A DNA stretch of 34,455 bases from Verrucomicrobiota bacterium. GTDB taxonomy: Bacteria; Verrucomicrobiota; Verrucomicrobiia; Limisphaerales; JAKPVM01. The notes under the pieces are model-generated. The model did no database searches and was not told where the DNA came from. It saw only the letters and a list, made by a program, of their open reading frames with translations. A program made the translations under genes and the position numbers. Position 1 is the first letter of the stretch. The number at the start of each line of letters is the position of its first letter. The stretch spans positions 1 through 34,455 of the forward strand of contig JAKPVM010000153.1 in the NCBI GenBank assembly GCA_029572555.1, in the 5' to 3' direction. Positions 17,407 through 23,070 of this stretch are shown here, in pieces.

Positions 17407-17979
17407 TTATTTTTTTAAATCAGTAGAATTGGGGTCATTTCCTTTTTCGTTTGCTTTAAATAATTGTTGATGCACTTCGCTGGTTTTTTCTGTTGCAGAA
17501 TGTGGTACCTTCTTAAAAACTACTGTTGCGTCAACTGCATTTAAATCTACAAGGTCGAATTTAAGTGTAGGTGCACGTTGTCTAGCAATTTTTATTTGGT
17601 TAGCAATTTTAGGAATAATAATTGAAGCATAATACTTAATAGCACCCGCACTTATGGCTGATTTATAGACTACAACAAGAATTAAATCTTCATCAATTTC
17701 AAGCATCATTGTGCTAAATTTTTCGCCTTGTTGTGACATTCCTGTAATTCTTGTTTCATTTAATAAGTTTGCCAGATAAGCAGATGCATTGTATGCATTT
17801 GAAGCAAGAGTTGAAATTATCTGAGTATCAAATTTTGCTGTTTCGCCGCGTTCGTGAATTAGATAGCCAGATTTTTCAACAATCAATACAAGCGAAGCAT
17901 CAGTTGCTGAAATAAAGTTGTTAATGTGCACATCAAATTCTTTGACATCTTCAACGCATATTTGTGGGAAATTACCCAT
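17407..17979 (-). CDS. Roadblock/LC7 domain protein (MglB-like)
   Basis: A 190-residue protein whose first roughly 130 residues form a roadblock/LC7 fold: helix, then the strand pair ASLVLIVEKSGYLIHERG, a long helix, and the strands TMMLEIDEDLILVVVY. MglB proteins of this fold are GTPase-activating partners of MglA. The C-terminal 60 residues are a basic then polar tail without a recognisable domain. It is the third gene of a minus-strand operon, eight bases after the MglA gene, which strongly supports a partnership. Whether it is an active GAP or a scaffold cannot be read from sequence. Confidence 0.85.
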   Translation of the reverse strand: MGNFPQICVEDVKEFDVHINNFISATDASLVLIVEKSGYLIHERGETAKFDTQIISTLASNAYNASAYLANLLNETRITGMSQQGEKFSTMMLEIDEDLILVVVYKSAISAGAIKYYASIIIPKIANQIKIARQRAPTLKFDLVDLNAVDATVVFKKVPHSATEKTSEVHQQLFKANEKGNDPNSTDLKK

Positions 17980-17987
17980 ATAAAGTA

Positions 17988-18599
17988 TTACTTACGTGCC
18001 ATTTCATTTATATATTTATGCAATAGCAATTTGCTTATAGCGTTTAGAGTTTCGAAAACGCCTTCGCATTTAGTTGCTATTGACGGGAAAGCAGGGACTC
18101 TTACTTCTCTGTTGTTCAACAGATATTCCATATATTCAATTGGCGCGATATCGGGTAAATCGCGTTTGTTGTATTGGAGTACATACGGAATGTCATCAAA
18201 ATTAAGTTTTAAAGTTTTTAAGTTGTCTATCAGATTTTGAAAACTTTCAATGTTTTCAGCCATTTTGTCGTATTGAGAATCTGCAACGAACACGATTCCA
18301 TCTACTCCTCTTAATACAAGTTGCCTTGTTGTGTTATAAATGACCTGTCCGGGAACGGTATATAATTGGAATTTAGTTTTATATCCCTTGATTGTCATTG
18401 CCTCAAGGGGGAAGAAATCAAAAAACAGAGTTCTATCTGAACTTGTTGCCAGTGAGACCATCTTTCCTTTGTTATCAGGTCTTGAGACCTGTATATTTGC
18501 ATGGACTTGTTCTAAATTTGTTGTTTTACCACATTTTGCCGGACCGTAATAGACGATTTTCAGCTGTAATTCTTTTGTTGCTTGATTAAGTATAGCCAT
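17988..18599 (-). CDS. mglA: MglA-type small Ras-like GTPase
   Basis: A 203-residue GTPase of the bacterial MglA family, a nucleotide-dependent polarity switch that in Myxococcus and Thermus works with MglB. The P-loop G-P-A-K-C-G-K-T-T is at 19-27. The switch II motif is T-V-P-G-Q (81-85), with Thr where Ras has Asp, a mark of MglA. LRGVDGIVFVADSQ (96-109) and the guanine-specificity motif N-K-R-D (144-147) follow. No lipid-anchor site or transmembrane segment is seen. It sits between two roadblock genes with eight-base gaps on both sides. No pilus motor or gliding genes are in the window, although a pseudopilin is encoded 5 kb away. Confidence 0.93.
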   Translation of the reverse strand: MAILNQATKELQLKIVYYGPAKCGKTTNLEQVHANIQVSRPDNKGKMVSLATSSDRTLFFDFFPLEAMTIKGYKTKFQLYTVPGQVIYNTTRQLVLRGVDGIVFVADSQYDKMAENIESFQNLIDNLKTLKLNFDDIPYVLQYNKRDLPDIAPIEYMEYLLNNREVRVPAFPSIATKCEGVFETLNAISKLLLHKYINEMARK

Positions 18600-18607
18600 A
18601 ACGTTAA

Positions 18608-20206
18608 TTAATTTTTATTCTGTTTAACAAGTTCATTTACTATTTCCTGTAATTGAATGCTTGGTGGAAGTGCTTCACTTCTTTTTCCTAAAACGACGAA
18701 ATAAATATTTTCGCTTACACAGACAAAAATTTTAGTGTCATTGCATTCAAAAGTTAGATTTGTTAAAGAACCTAATTGGAACTCTGATGTAAGACCTGAA
18801 ACCCGAGAAAATATTTGTGGCAATAATGCAGCAAATACATCAGGGTTGAAATTATCAGGTAATTTATAAGCTACTGGTAATCCTTCTTTCAACGAAATCA
18901 TTGCACCGTTTATTCCGGGTAAATTCATTGTGCATTGAATGACTTCATTAGGTGTCCATTTTGTTTTGCCTGGTTTGTCAAATAACTCACTTAAAGATTT
19001 TACCTCATATTTTGTGGACGGTTTTTCCTTTGGAATAACTTCTTTTTCTAGATGGAAATCTATACTGGGTTGAATTTGTGATGCTAATTGTGGTTGTTGA
19101 ATGCTTTCATCAGGTTGTTGTAATGGTTTTGTTTTTTCTTCAATTGATTGAACAGATTCGGATGCCATTCGCAGCGGGGTTGCTTCTGCCGATTTTGAAC
19201 TTTCCGATGTCACTGCTGTGAAAATGTCCGGAATAGTATCGATTAATGTGAGCGTTTTTTTGGGTGCAGATATTGTAACTTTTGACAAAAATAATGGCGC
19301 AATTACTTTTAATGGAATTTCGAAAGTTATATCAGGACTTGAAGGCGTAGATTGGGGTAGGGGAGAAAGCCATGAATAAATTTTTCCCCAACTATATATA
19401 ACTTTTCCACTTTTTATCAATGGTTCTAATTCTTTTACCGGTATGTTAATTAATGACTCGGAAAGTTTTAATGTCTGGATTTGTTCCACTATTTCAGGCT
19501 TTAAGTATGAAATCAATGAATTGAGTTTTATACTTATAACATTTAGTGGTTCTTCTGGTGTTGTTACGGCAGGTTGTTTTTGAACAGGCTCTTCTGGTGG
19601 TTTAAGTTGTTCTTGTTTTTCAGGTATGATTGGTTTTTGTTGTGATAAATCAGACACTCCAGTTGTTTCAGATATTTTAGCGCTTATTGGTTTAACTTTG
19701 TTATCTACTTTTTGCCCGCCAAATATATCGGTTATTTCATCCGGAACTGTTTGTTCCTTTTTTGACTGTATTTTAAAGTGAGAAGCACTTAATTTAGGGA
19801 TTATTTCTTTTAACGGAAGATAAACGATTTCATTGTCAAGGGAGTAATTTGTCGAAAATATTCCCGGTGGAGACGTTTTTTTTAACTCGCCAAATGTTAT
19901 TTTAACAGCACCAGTTTGAATCTGTGGTAATATTTTTTCAACAGGAATTTTAAATGTCTCAGATGAAGATGGCTTTTTAATTATTTCGGCTTTAAGTTTG
20001 TCTGAAAATCCTAAAATAATACTACTAATTGCAATGCTAATAGAATCTTTATATGTCTCTATGGTTGGCTGTTGTTCTTTATCTGATTTGTTTATTACTA
20101 ATGGCCGGTTTTTTGATTTATCAGAGGTAACTATACTATCTATAGGTTCTTTTCTTTGCGGCTCTTCAACCTTTTCTGTAAATATTTTTTTTAGGAATTT
20201 AAACAT
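18608..20206 (-). CDS. Two-repeat linker protein with C-terminal roadblock/LC7 domain
   Basis: A 532-residue protein, first gene of the MglA operon. Three parts are visible. Residues 54-163 and 222-330 are two copies of a roughly 110-residue module: each has a helix/strand start (SISIAISSIILGF, VISIKLNSLISYL), then '(K/N)IPV(E/K)(K/E)(I/L)xPxIxxG(A/K)V' with a W/F-G-x-(L/I) turn, then an '(L/I)PLKxIxP' strand, and an 'IPDIF'-like end. Proline/glutamine-rich linkers separate the modules (164-221, 331-400). Residues 416-530 are a roadblock-like domain (GINGAMISLKEGLPVAYKLP, TNLTFECNDTKIFVCVSENIYFVVLG). No membrane segment is seen. Function is unknown; a scaffold or regulator binding MglA is inferred from operon and domain. 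Confidence 0.8.
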   Translation of the reverse strand: MFKFLKKIFTEKVEEPQRKEPIDSIVTSDKSKNRPLVINKSDKEQQPTIETYKDSISIAISSIILGFSDKLKAEIIKKPSSSETFKIPVEKILPQIQTGAVKITFGELKKTSPPGIFSTNYSLDNEIVYLPLKEIIPKLSASHFKIQSKKEQTVPDEITDIFGGQKVDNKVKPISAKISETTGVSDLSQQKPIIPEKQEQLKPPEEPVQKQPAVTTPEEPLNVISIKLNSLISYLKPEIVEQIQTLKLSESLINIPVKELEPLIKSGKVIYSWGKIYSWLSPLPQSTPSSPDITFEIPLKVIAPLFLSKVTISAPKKTLTLIDTIPDIFTAVTSESSKSAEATPLRMASESVQSIEEKTKPLQQPDESIQQPQLASQIQPSIDFHLEKEVIPKEKPSTKYEVKSLSELFDKPGKTKWTPNEVIQCTMNLPGINGAMISLKEGLPVAYKLPDNFNPDVFAALLPQIFSRVSGLTSEFQLGSLTNLTFECNDTKIFVCVSENIYFVVLGKRSEALPPSIQLQEIVNELVKQNKN

Positions 20207-20409: not shown

Positions 20410-21990
20410 ATGACAAAAATTTTAAAAACTTTGCTATTAATTTTAATGGCTGCATTTGCAGGATGCGGCTCCGGGTCGCAGACATCAACAACAGCAACAA
20501 ATTTAACTTCAGGAGGTACTGTGAAAAGTGAAGCATTAAAAGTTCGGGAACCTGCGGTTGCAGGTTTATTTTATCCGAGAACACCATCGTCCTTAAGCGA
20601 AATGATTGATAAGTTATTAAAAGACGCACCTGATTTCAATATATCGGACTTAAGGGCGATAATTTCACCACACGCCGGGTATGTCTACTCTGGTCCGGTT
20701 GCGGCTTACGGTTATAAACAAATCATCGGAAAGAATTATAAAACAGTGATAATCCTTGCTCCGAGCCATTATGCTTGGGTTAGGGGTGCATCAGTTTGTG
20801 GTGCAGAGGTTTACAGAACCCCACTTGGAGATGTAAAAATTTCTCCAAAGGCTTATGAACTTGCCAAAAAACCGCCTTTTGTACCGGAGGCTCCGGCAAG
20901 GGTACAAAGGCCGGGATGGTATTCAGAGGCTTCACGAACAGCACCATCGTACGGTCAGGATACACCTCATACATGGGAACATTCTGATGAGGTTCAGGTT
21001 CCATTTTTACAAAAGGTTTTAAAAGATTTTGAGTTAATACCAGTTATTGTTGGTGAGTGTGACACAGAACAGGCTGCAAAAGTGTTAAACGAATTTATAG
21101 ATGAAAAGACCTTAATTGTCGTTAGTTCAGACCTTAGCCATTATCTACCTTATGAAACCGCAAAATCAGTTGATAATCAATCCATAAAGACAATATGCAA
21201 TCTTGATTTAAGTAGGATTGAGAAAGAAGAAGCCTGCGGGAGATTGCCAATCGCGATCCTAATGCATATTGCAAAAATGCACGGATGGAAACCACAACTT
21301 CTTAATTATAGGAATAGTGGCGATACAGCCGGTGATAAAAGCGCGGTTGTGGGATATTCTTCCATTGCATTTGTTGGAAAATTAGGCGGCACAAAAAATG
21401 ATGTTCAATCAAAATCATCGTCTTTAACAGATGAACAGAAGAAATTTTTGTTAAAGTTAGCGCGTAATACAATAAAAGCGGCAAGCAGAAGAGAGCCGTT
21501 GCCAGTAGTGGATGAGAAAAATTTGGATGAAAAATTAAAAGTCAAAACGGCGTGTTTTGTTACCTTGACAAAAGGCGGTAATTTGAGGGGATGTATAGGG
21601 CATATTTCGGCGATTGAACCACTTTATAAAGCAGTGATTGAAAATGCACAAGCCGCTGCAATGTATGACACTCGCTTTGAACCGGTTAAATATGATGAGG
21701 TTAATAATATTGAAATAGAAATTAGCATATTAACAGAGCCTAAAGAGTTAAATTATAATTCTGCTGAAGATTTGTTAGCAAAATTAAGACCGGGAGTTGA
21801 TGGTGTAATATTGAATATTGGTGGACGACGATCAACCTTCCTTCCGCAAGTGTGGGAACAATTACCTAACAAGGTTGATTTTTTAAATCATCTTTCATTA
21901 AAAGCAGGATGCTCACCGAGTGAATGGCGAAACCCTGAAACTAAAGTTTATATTTATCAGGTAGAAAAGTTTTCGGAGTCCGATTTTTAG
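20410..21990 (+). CDS. Lipoprotein fusing MEMO (AmmeMemoRadiSam protein B) and AMMECR1 (protein A) domains
   Basis: A 526-residue fusion. Residues 1-19 form a lipoprotein signal (basic start, hydrophobic core, FAGC with C19), followed by a Ser/Thr linker. The MEMO domain (about 46-325) keeps the putative iron ligands: H88 (SPHAGY), H120 (APSHYAW) and C276 (EACGRLP). H88 and H120 are 32 apart, as are H49 and H81 of human MEMO1. An insertion of about 30 residues (155-188) precedes EHSDEVQVPFL. The AMMECR1 domain (about 338-525) has LRGCIGH (392-398). The biochemical role of this widespread pair is unsettled, and the radical SAM partner is not in the window. The lipid anchor implies action outside the cytoplasm. 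Confidence 0.92.
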   Translation: MTKILKTLLLILMAAFAGCGSGSQTSTTATNLTSGGTVKSEALKVREPAVAGLFYPRTPSSLSEMIDKLLKDAPDFNISDLRAIISPHAGYVYSGPVAAYGYKQIIGKNYKTVIILAPSHYAWVRGASVCGAEVYRTPLGDVKISPKAYELAKKPPFVPEAPARVQRPGWYSEASRTAPSYGQDTPHTWEHSDEVQVPFLQKVLKDFELIPVIVGECDTEQAAKVLNEFIDEKTLIVVSSDLSHYLPYETAKSVDNQSIKTICNLDLSRIEKEEACGRLPIAILMHIAKMHGWKPQLLNYRNSGDTAGDKSAVVGYSSIAFVGKLGGTKNDVQSKSSSLTDEQKKFLLKLARNTIKAASRREPLPVVDEKNLDEKLKVKTACFVTLTKGGNLRGCIGHISAIEPLYKAVIENAQAAAMYDTRFEPVKYDEVNNIEIEISILTEPKELNYNSAEDLLAKLRPGVDGVILNIGGRRSTFLPQVWEQLPNKVDFLNHLSLKAGCSPSEWRNPETKVYIYQVEKFSESDF

Positions 21991-22005: not shown

Positions 22006-23070
22006 TTACATACCAAGTACATAAGCAAAAATTAATGGAGCAACTATTGTAGCGTCTGACTCAATAATGAAACGCGGAGTATTGGGGTCTAATTTTCCCC
22101 ATGTAATTTTTTCATTTGGTATTGCGCCGGAATAAGACCCATAACTTGTGGTCGAATCACTAATTTGGCAGAAATACGACCAGAACTTTGCCTTTTGTTT
22201 AAGGTCAATATTTATCAGTGGCACAACGCAAATCGGAAAATCGCCTGTTATGCCTCCACCAATTTGGAACATCCCCATTTCTCTATCTGCTGTAATTCTC
22301 TGGTAATAATCTGCAAACCATATCATATATTCAATCCCAGAGCGAATTATGGAAGGATTTTTAATTTTCCCTTTTATACAAGCAGCAGCAAATGCGTTTC
22401 CGAGTGTTGAGTCTTCCCATCCCGGCACAATTATCGGTAGGTTTTTATTGCAAGCAGCTATTAGCCAGCTTTCCGAAGGGTCAATCTGGTAATATTTTTC
22501 AAGCACACCACTATTAATTAACCTGTAAAAATACTCATAAGGGAACAATCGTTCTCCATTTTTATCTGCCTTTTCCCACTCTTTGATGATTAAATTTTCC
22601 ACCCTATCCATTACTTTTTCGGGGACACAGGTGTCTGTAACACGGGAATAACCTTCATTGAATATTCTTTGTTCGTCTTCTGGTGAGAGGTTACGCCAAT
22701 CCGGAATAATCCTATATTCTTTGTTCCCGACGAGGTTAAAGATATCTTCTTCAAGGTTTGCACCTGTGCAACAAATCAGATGGATTTTATCCTGTCTAAT
22801 CATTTCAGCAAGGAGATTACCAATTTCTGCTGTGCTCATTGCTCCTGCCATTGTCAGCATCATATAGCTTCCGTTTTCAATTTGTTTTTTCCATTCTCTG
22901 GCGGCTTCTCTGAGAATTGATGCATTGAAATGTCTAAAATTATGTTCAATAAAATTTTTAATATACCCACTTTGAACTAAACTATTATTTTCACCATTTA
23001 AAGATATTACCTTGTTTTTAGGTATTCCTTGATGTTTCTTAAGAATTTTTATTGTGGATACTGTCTTCAT
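22006..23070 (-). CDS. Deoxyhypusine synthase family protein
   Basis: A 354-residue protein, close to the roughly 370 of eukaryotic deoxyhypusine synthase. Recognisable parts are MMLTMAGAMSTAEIGNLLAEMI (NAD site region), ICCTGANLEEDIF, VPGWEDSTLGNAF, FQIGGGI and NEKITWGK. The lysine that forms the spermidine imine (human K329) is conserved as K326. The human active-site region around H288 (KHH) is instead GDF here, and the FDGSDSGARPDE loop reads TTSYGSYSGAIPNE. Bacteria lack eIF5A, so the acceptor must differ. A polyamine-transfer role such as homospermidine-type synthesis is a possibility, not a reading. It converges on the MEMO-AMMECR1 gene 15 bases away. The start is preceded by a 292-base gap. 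Confidence 0.88.
   Translation of the reverse strand: MKTVSTIKILKKHQGIPKNKVISLNGENNSLVQSGYIKNFIEHNFRHFNASILREAAREWKKQIENGSYMMLTMAGAMSTAEIGNLLAEMIRQDKIHLICCTGANLEEDIFNLVGNKEYRIIPDWRNLSPEDEQRIFNEGYSRVTDTCVPEKVMDRVENLIIKEWEKADKNGERLFPYEYFYRLINSGVLEKYYQIDPSESWLIAACNKNLPIIVPGWEDSTLGNAFAAACIKGKIKNPSIIRSGIEYMIWFADYYQRITADREMGMFQIGGGITGDFPICVVPLINIDLKQKAKFWSYFCQISDSTTSYGSYSGAIPNEKITWGKLDPNTPRFIIESDATIVAPLIFAYVLGM

Follow-up and report, generated by a model that had tools for sequence, protein, structure and literature searches.

In a few model bacteria, cell polarity and the activity of pili are under the control of MglA switches. At the locus described here, such a switch is encoded beside two roadblock proteins of different kinds, one of which carries a duplicated domain. 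The window, a 34,455-nucleotide stretch of DNA, lies on contig C253 of a 3.34-Mb draft Verrucomicrobiota genome that is 82.7% complete. Three open reading frames with 8-base gaps occupy positions 17407–20206 of the minus strand and encode a 532-amino acid repeat and roadblock protein (BIG), MglA, and a 190-amino acid roadblock protein (ROB). The sequence-only reading of the window had described these genes as an operon, and the frames and gaps bear this out. One MglA match (17988–18599) and two roadblock proteins (BIG and ROB) were found in the whole genome. The features of the locus are as follows.

18608..20206, minus strand: BIG, 532 aa, repeat and roadblock protein; an open reading frame with relatives of the same architecture in 24/39 same-order genomes
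20171..20206, minus strand: hydrophobic and basic stretch MFKFLKKIFTEK at the N terminus of BIG; candidate anchor to a membrane or a partner, conserved in 20 relatives
19718..20041, minus strand: BIG repeat copy 1, residues 56–163; family profile E 3.8e-32, AF2 pLDDT mostly >90
19217..19537, minus strand: BIG repeat copy 2, residues 224–330; family profile E 1.8e-26, same fold as copy 1 in the full-length model
18689..18946, minus strand: BIG C-terminal roadblock/LC7 domain; Pfam 40.5 bits, Foldseek E to 1.9e-8
17988..18599, minus strand: MglA, 203 aa, group-1-type Ras-like GTPase; E 8e-61 to M. xanthus MglA, with P-loop, R56-T57, TVPGQ, and NKRD retained
18345..18359, minus strand: MglA TVPGQ switch motif, residues 81–85; from the alignment with M. 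xanthus MglA
17407..17979, minus strand: ROB, 190 aa, MglB-like, predicted GAP; Robl_LC7 27.5 bits, M. xanthus MglB E 5e-8

The GTPase aligns end to end with MglA of M. xanthus (194 residues, 51% identical, E 8e-61) and keeps the P-loop, R56-T57, the TVPGQ motif (T81-Q85) that had been read as its diagnostic switch, and NKRD. Group 1 of the MglA proteins is defined by TVPGQ in G3 and an arginine beside the G2 threonine, in a Ras-like fold (PMC4316618). Because R56-T57 and TVPGQ fit this published definition, the protein was assigned to the group-1 type. With its P-loop and NKxD motifs, it is predicted to be a GTP-binding and GTP-hydrolyzing switch.

ROB contains a single Robl_LC7 domain (residues 19–104, 27.5 bits against a Pfam cut-off of 23) and is encoded next to MglA, in keeping with MglB, and its length of 190 amino acids is slightly above the ~130–180 of that family. 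Its best PDB sequence match is MglB of M. xanthus (E 5e-8), and it matches the NCBIfam MglB model NF052242 (GTPaseActivMglBThm) at E 3.5e-11 and 43.4 bits, a score that does not reach the cut-off of 200. This specific similarity supports the earlier proposal that one of the two roadblock proteins is the GAP, and it points to ROB as the MglB-type GTPase-activating partner predicted for this MglA. In three close relatives (L047:4118-4828, L048:8372-9232, and L049:8164-9015), ROB ends in two CDGSH-type iron-sulphur motifs (Pfam was run on two of the three proteins); such a roadblock-CDGSH fusion would suggest redox control of the switch.

The second roadblock domain lies at the C terminus of BIG. 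Residues 421–506 match Robl_LC7 (40.5 bits, cut-off 23), and a Foldseek comparison of the modelled domain with the PDB returned Asgard archaeal roadblocks first and M. xanthus MglB next (E to 1.9e-8), which together identify a roadblock fold. Profile comparison of this domain with ROB gave no alignment, and the two are therefore quite different roadblocks; the description of two unlike roadblock proteins beside MglA thus held, with both above the Pfam cut-off. BIG was also considered as a second MglB and rejected on this unalignable profile, the absence of an MglB model match, and its closer structural match to archaeal roadblocks. A roadblock domain was not detected in some relatives of BIG.

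The remainder of BIG is built around a ~108-residue domain present in two copies that are 28% identical. Local alignment of residues 54–163 with 222–330, the borders first proposed for a duplicated 110-residue module, scored 92, compared with a mean of 33 (SD 6) and a maximum of 68 among 2000 shuffles (z = 9.4), and a profile of the repeat family placed the copies at the nearly identical borders 56–163 and 224–330. The 24 BIG proteins compared within the order carry two copies each, except for two proteins with three. For the order itself, the assignment of copy types is partly circular because the profiles were trained on it. Elsewhere in the phylum, the number ranges from one to three per protein. 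AlphaFold predicts four beta-alpha units for a single repeat, with pLDDT >90 over most of module residues 1–85, and both copies were confidently modelled with the matching four-fold beta-alpha unit in full-length BIG. The repeat had been reported as unassignable to a known domain, and the searches agree. A Pfam scan of 111 repeat members gave isolated weak hits and no credible match, NCBIfam models run against whole BIG returned nothing of weight, a PDB sequence search found no match, and a PDB fold search with the repeat model found none at E 0.001. Identity with a domain in these libraries was rejected on this basis.

The linkers of BIG are rich in Pro and Gln, as had been noted on reading, and were modelled with low confidence (pLDDT about 45–60). 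Not picked out in that reading was a conserved MFxxxKKxF segment that forms the N terminus of BIG within the order. Across 20 relatives, M1 is invariant and F2 and K6 are nearly so. The AlphaFold model shows no helix in this segment (pLDDT about 53), and more distant BIG proteins do not fit its pattern. We infer that it is a candidate membrane or partner anchor.

The distribution of the three genes was used to determine whether they belong together. Among the 39 genomes of the same order, BIG was found in 24 by protein search and in 25 by repeat profile. All 23 genomes with this MglA also carry BIG, giving 23 genomes with both, two with the repeat only, and none with MglA only (P = 8e-9); in both repeat-only genomes (G028 and G036), the BIG gene is cut by a contig end. 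Gene order is preserved as BIG-MglA-ROB on one strand in 20/20 same-order loci with enough contig, including one (L045) in which BIG is split into two overlapping frames. Since the BIG alignment offers no conserved stretch, named genomes were scanned with MglA as the query, which recovered the same order in Pedosphaera, Limisphaera, other Verrucomicrobia, and Spartobacteria/Chthoniobacterales. BIG is divergent from MglA-ROB in Lentisphaeria and Kiritimatiellia.

In a phylum-wide set of 388 genomes, the repeat and MglA occur together in 39, the repeat alone in five, MglA alone in two, and neither in 342 (P = 1e-45). In G226, one of the two MglA-only genomes, a divergent BIG adjoins MglA on inspection, and G261, an apparent exception, has an MglA fragment of 102 amino acids. 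The BIG gene of G383 sits on a 10-kb contig that lacks MglA, and in G045, G058, G091, and G253 short stretches resembling the repeat occur at a distance from MglA. In G250, BIG lies ~1.7 Mb from the MglA-ROB pair (L212 and L213), and both are retained. The suggestion that the triad stays together in relatives is therefore borne out in the order at every informative locus, with linkage and co-occurrence extending far beyond it. Chance proximity of an unrelated gene to an otherwise ordinary MglA-MglB pair, for which nothing speaks beyond the view from a single locus, is hardly credible given a gene order conserved across the phylum and co-occurrence that includes unlinked cases, and was rejected. 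This phylum-wide association makes the triad look like a real signalling system, and BIG, MglA, and ROB almost certainly form one functional unit.

In one family of the phylum, a single domain resembling the repeat occurs in short proteins or stretches that have no MglA close by (L206:5191-5679 and L207:5311-5760, and also in G045 and G253). A Verrucomicrobiota-type module was also seen in two loci named as other taxa, L121 (Paceibacterota) and L128 (Betaproteobacteria), which are probably misassigned bins or the result of transfer.

A tree of 110 MglA sequences, constructed with a quick method and containing long branches, separated the BIG-associated MglA proteins from MglA proteins without BIG at a branch supported at 99%. 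Few members of the BIG side lack BIG, mostly at contig ends, with the exception of L124 (Armatimonadota). In loci labelled AUK196, Methylomirabilota, and Armatimonadota, the repeat protein lacks a roadblock domain, and the roadblock is encoded by a gene of its own in the MglA cluster. The occurrence of repeat and roadblock as separate genes beside MglA suggests that the two halves of BIG work together, and BIG is most simply read as a union of two parts that those lineages encode separately, through a fusion in one direction or a split in the other. Where BIG is absent (Myxococcota, Acidobacteriota, Gemmatimonadota, WOR-3, and others), MglA occurs by itself or with MglB, and additional roadblock genes are present at some of these loci; no repeat protein adjoining MglA was found in Myxococcota and the other loci outside the BIG-associated MglA group.

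Most loci in the order also share a set of genes divergent from BIG that encodes a REC-DUF4388 (PATAN) response regulator, a protein of ~100 amino acids (S100), a protein of ~130 amino acids (S130), and often UppP. The regulator, S100, and S130 adjoin BIG in about 35 loci. In the genome studied here, they form an operon on another contig, away from the triad (C2; L197:2206-4006). Every BIG-bearing genome of the order has S130, as do two others. PATAN genes near MglA have been noted earlier in the literature. No Pfam family was found for S100 or S130. S100 had been suggested by eye as a third roadblock protein, which neither profile comparison (probability 1.6%) nor Pfam supported. In G009, a genome of 57% completeness that yielded neither BIG nor MglA, the genes on C104 (L202) for S130 and the REC-PATAN regulator look fragmented, as if the system were decaying.

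We propose, with middling confidence, that the locus encodes an MglA/MglB-type switch organized by the repeat-roadblock scaffold BIG and probably acting on type IV pili. MglA would be a GTP-driven switch that cycles between GTP and GDP and has its own arginine finger, and ROB would speed GTP hydrolysis as MglB does; both roles are drawn from homology. From domain content, linkage, and co-occurrence, BIG would be the organizer, with its C-terminal roadblock domain docking into the MglA/ROB assembly, its two repeat copies binding the target or further proteins, and the hydrophobic-basic segment conserved at its N terminus holding it at a membrane or polar site, with flexible linkers between the parts. 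Input would probably come from the REC-PATAN regulator encoded with S100 and S130, and output would probably go to the type IV pilus extension ATPase PilB or to a pilus-like machine.

The role of BIG as a scaffold or cargo adaptor, also suggested in the sequence-only reading, is plausible. BIG could instead be a catalytic regulator of MglA, either an exchange factor or a co-GAP, in the manner of RomR/RomX or RomY of M. xanthus. Roadblock domains do regulate small GTPases, an obligate co-occurrence with MglA would suit a regulator equally well, and there is a precedent in RomY, in which a short domain that matched no characterized model stimulates the GAP activity of MglB (PMC9481161). Long, variable, and disordered linkers, the varying number of repeats, and sequence conservation of ~29% among relatives, compared with ~80% for MglA, are more adaptor-like, and we consider a catalytic BIG unlikely.

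Evidence on the output of the module comes from neighboring genes. In nine same-class loci outside the order, genes for a TPR-MshEN protein and PilB directly precede BIG. Among NCBIfam models, PilB (TIGR02538) scored best for the three proteins tested, with GspE models close in score. In M. xanthus, the route from MglA to pili runs through SgmX, a TPR protein that brings in PilB (PMC11580455). PilT occurs in 39/39 genomes of the order with or without BIG and is therefore uninformative on a pilus link. In G226, prepilin-like and PilC-like genes recognized by eye lie a few kb from MglA (L210:123-7082) and hint at a link to a pilus or secretion system.

The nine loci could also be taken to mean that BIG is a downstream effector of MglA-GTP, forming an SgmX-like link to PilB, with its roadblock domain only reading the GTP state. 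The TPR protein in the same loci is already an SgmX-like candidate, however, and PilB does not adjoin BIG at the locus in the window, which leaves an effector role improbable and an organizing role for BIG preferred. For the output itself, we consider a type IV pilus about an even prospect, from a neighborhood found in one lineage. It is possible, if rather doubtful, that the module is real and that it controls a process other than type IV pili, for example type II secretion, growth of the envelope, or a redox response: its neighbors in the order are the REC-PATAN regulator, S100, S130, and UppP and not pilus genes, the ROB proteins of near relatives carry the CDGSH motifs described above, and PilB and GspE models are close in score. 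The PilB model nevertheless outscores the alternatives in the proteins tested, and MglA is tied to type IV pili in M. xanthus (PMC11580455), both of which favor a pilus output.

Comparison with known systems shows which parts of the module have precedents. The statement that MglA normally has one MglB partner was too strong, since 1:2 MglA:MglB systems have been published, as has M. xanthus MglC, a second roadblock protein that binds MglB. Because of these precedents, two roadblock partners per MglA are not the new part. The module resembles the MglA/MglB/MglC-RomR module of M. xanthus in having a group-1-type MglA with TVPGQ and an intrinsic arginine, an MglB-like partner, a second roadblock protein, and response regulators as input; MglC is not described with a repeat domain, whereas BIG has one. 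The 1:2 systems comprise group 3 and a few members of group 1, with group 3 almost confined to beta/gamma-Proteobacteria and encoding an unknown protein with a predicted REC-like N terminus and winged-helix C terminus (Wuichet and Sogaard-Andersen). BIG consists of repeats and a roadblock domain instead. That 2014 survey listed Verrucomicrobia under group 5 and not group 1.

The actinobacterial conservon (CvnA-D) is likewise a compact operon, tied to two-component signalling, in which a roadblock protein and a GTPase of the MglA family are accompanied by a protein of unknown function. Its MglA belongs to a different group, it has no repeat-roadblock fusion, and its histidine kinase CvnA, with CvnC, was not found beside the GTPase in the gene tables of the window and relatives. 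In the Ragulator complex (LAMTOR1-5), an extended anchor protein links roadblock proteins and positions small GTPases at a membrane. The likeness of BIG to LAMTOR1 is put forward as an analogy only, the roadblock fold being common to both systems and anchoring by BIG a proposal.

A search of a limited literature library gave no description of the repeat domain, its fusion to a roadblock, or this Verrucomicrobiota system, and nothing relevant beyond the 2014 survey, so that the BIG scaffold, the repeat domain, and the phylum-wide system appear to be undescribed. A wider reading, which we put forward tentatively, is of an MglA system across Verrucomicrobiota whose obligate organizer is a roadblock domain fused to a new repeat of a fold not represented in the PDB, with input from REC-PATAN and S100/S130, output to PilB, and the fused parts occurring as separate genes in other phyla. 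The module would provide a second and compact setting in which to study the placement of a bacterial Ras-like switch and its coupling to a machine, with an obligate partner whose repeat is recognized by no library. Linkage and co-occurrence name six proteins for such work (BIG, MglA, ROB, the REC-PATAN regulator, S100, and S130), and three of the families involved have no Pfam model (the repeat, S100, and S130).

Two further genes lie close to the triad in the window. Divergent from BIG, positions 20410–21990 encode fused Memo and AMMECR1 domains, an ordinary neighbor that is not kept near the triad in relatives, and positions 22006–23070 encode a bacterial protein of the deoxyhypusine synthase family (Pfam DS, 145.6 bits).
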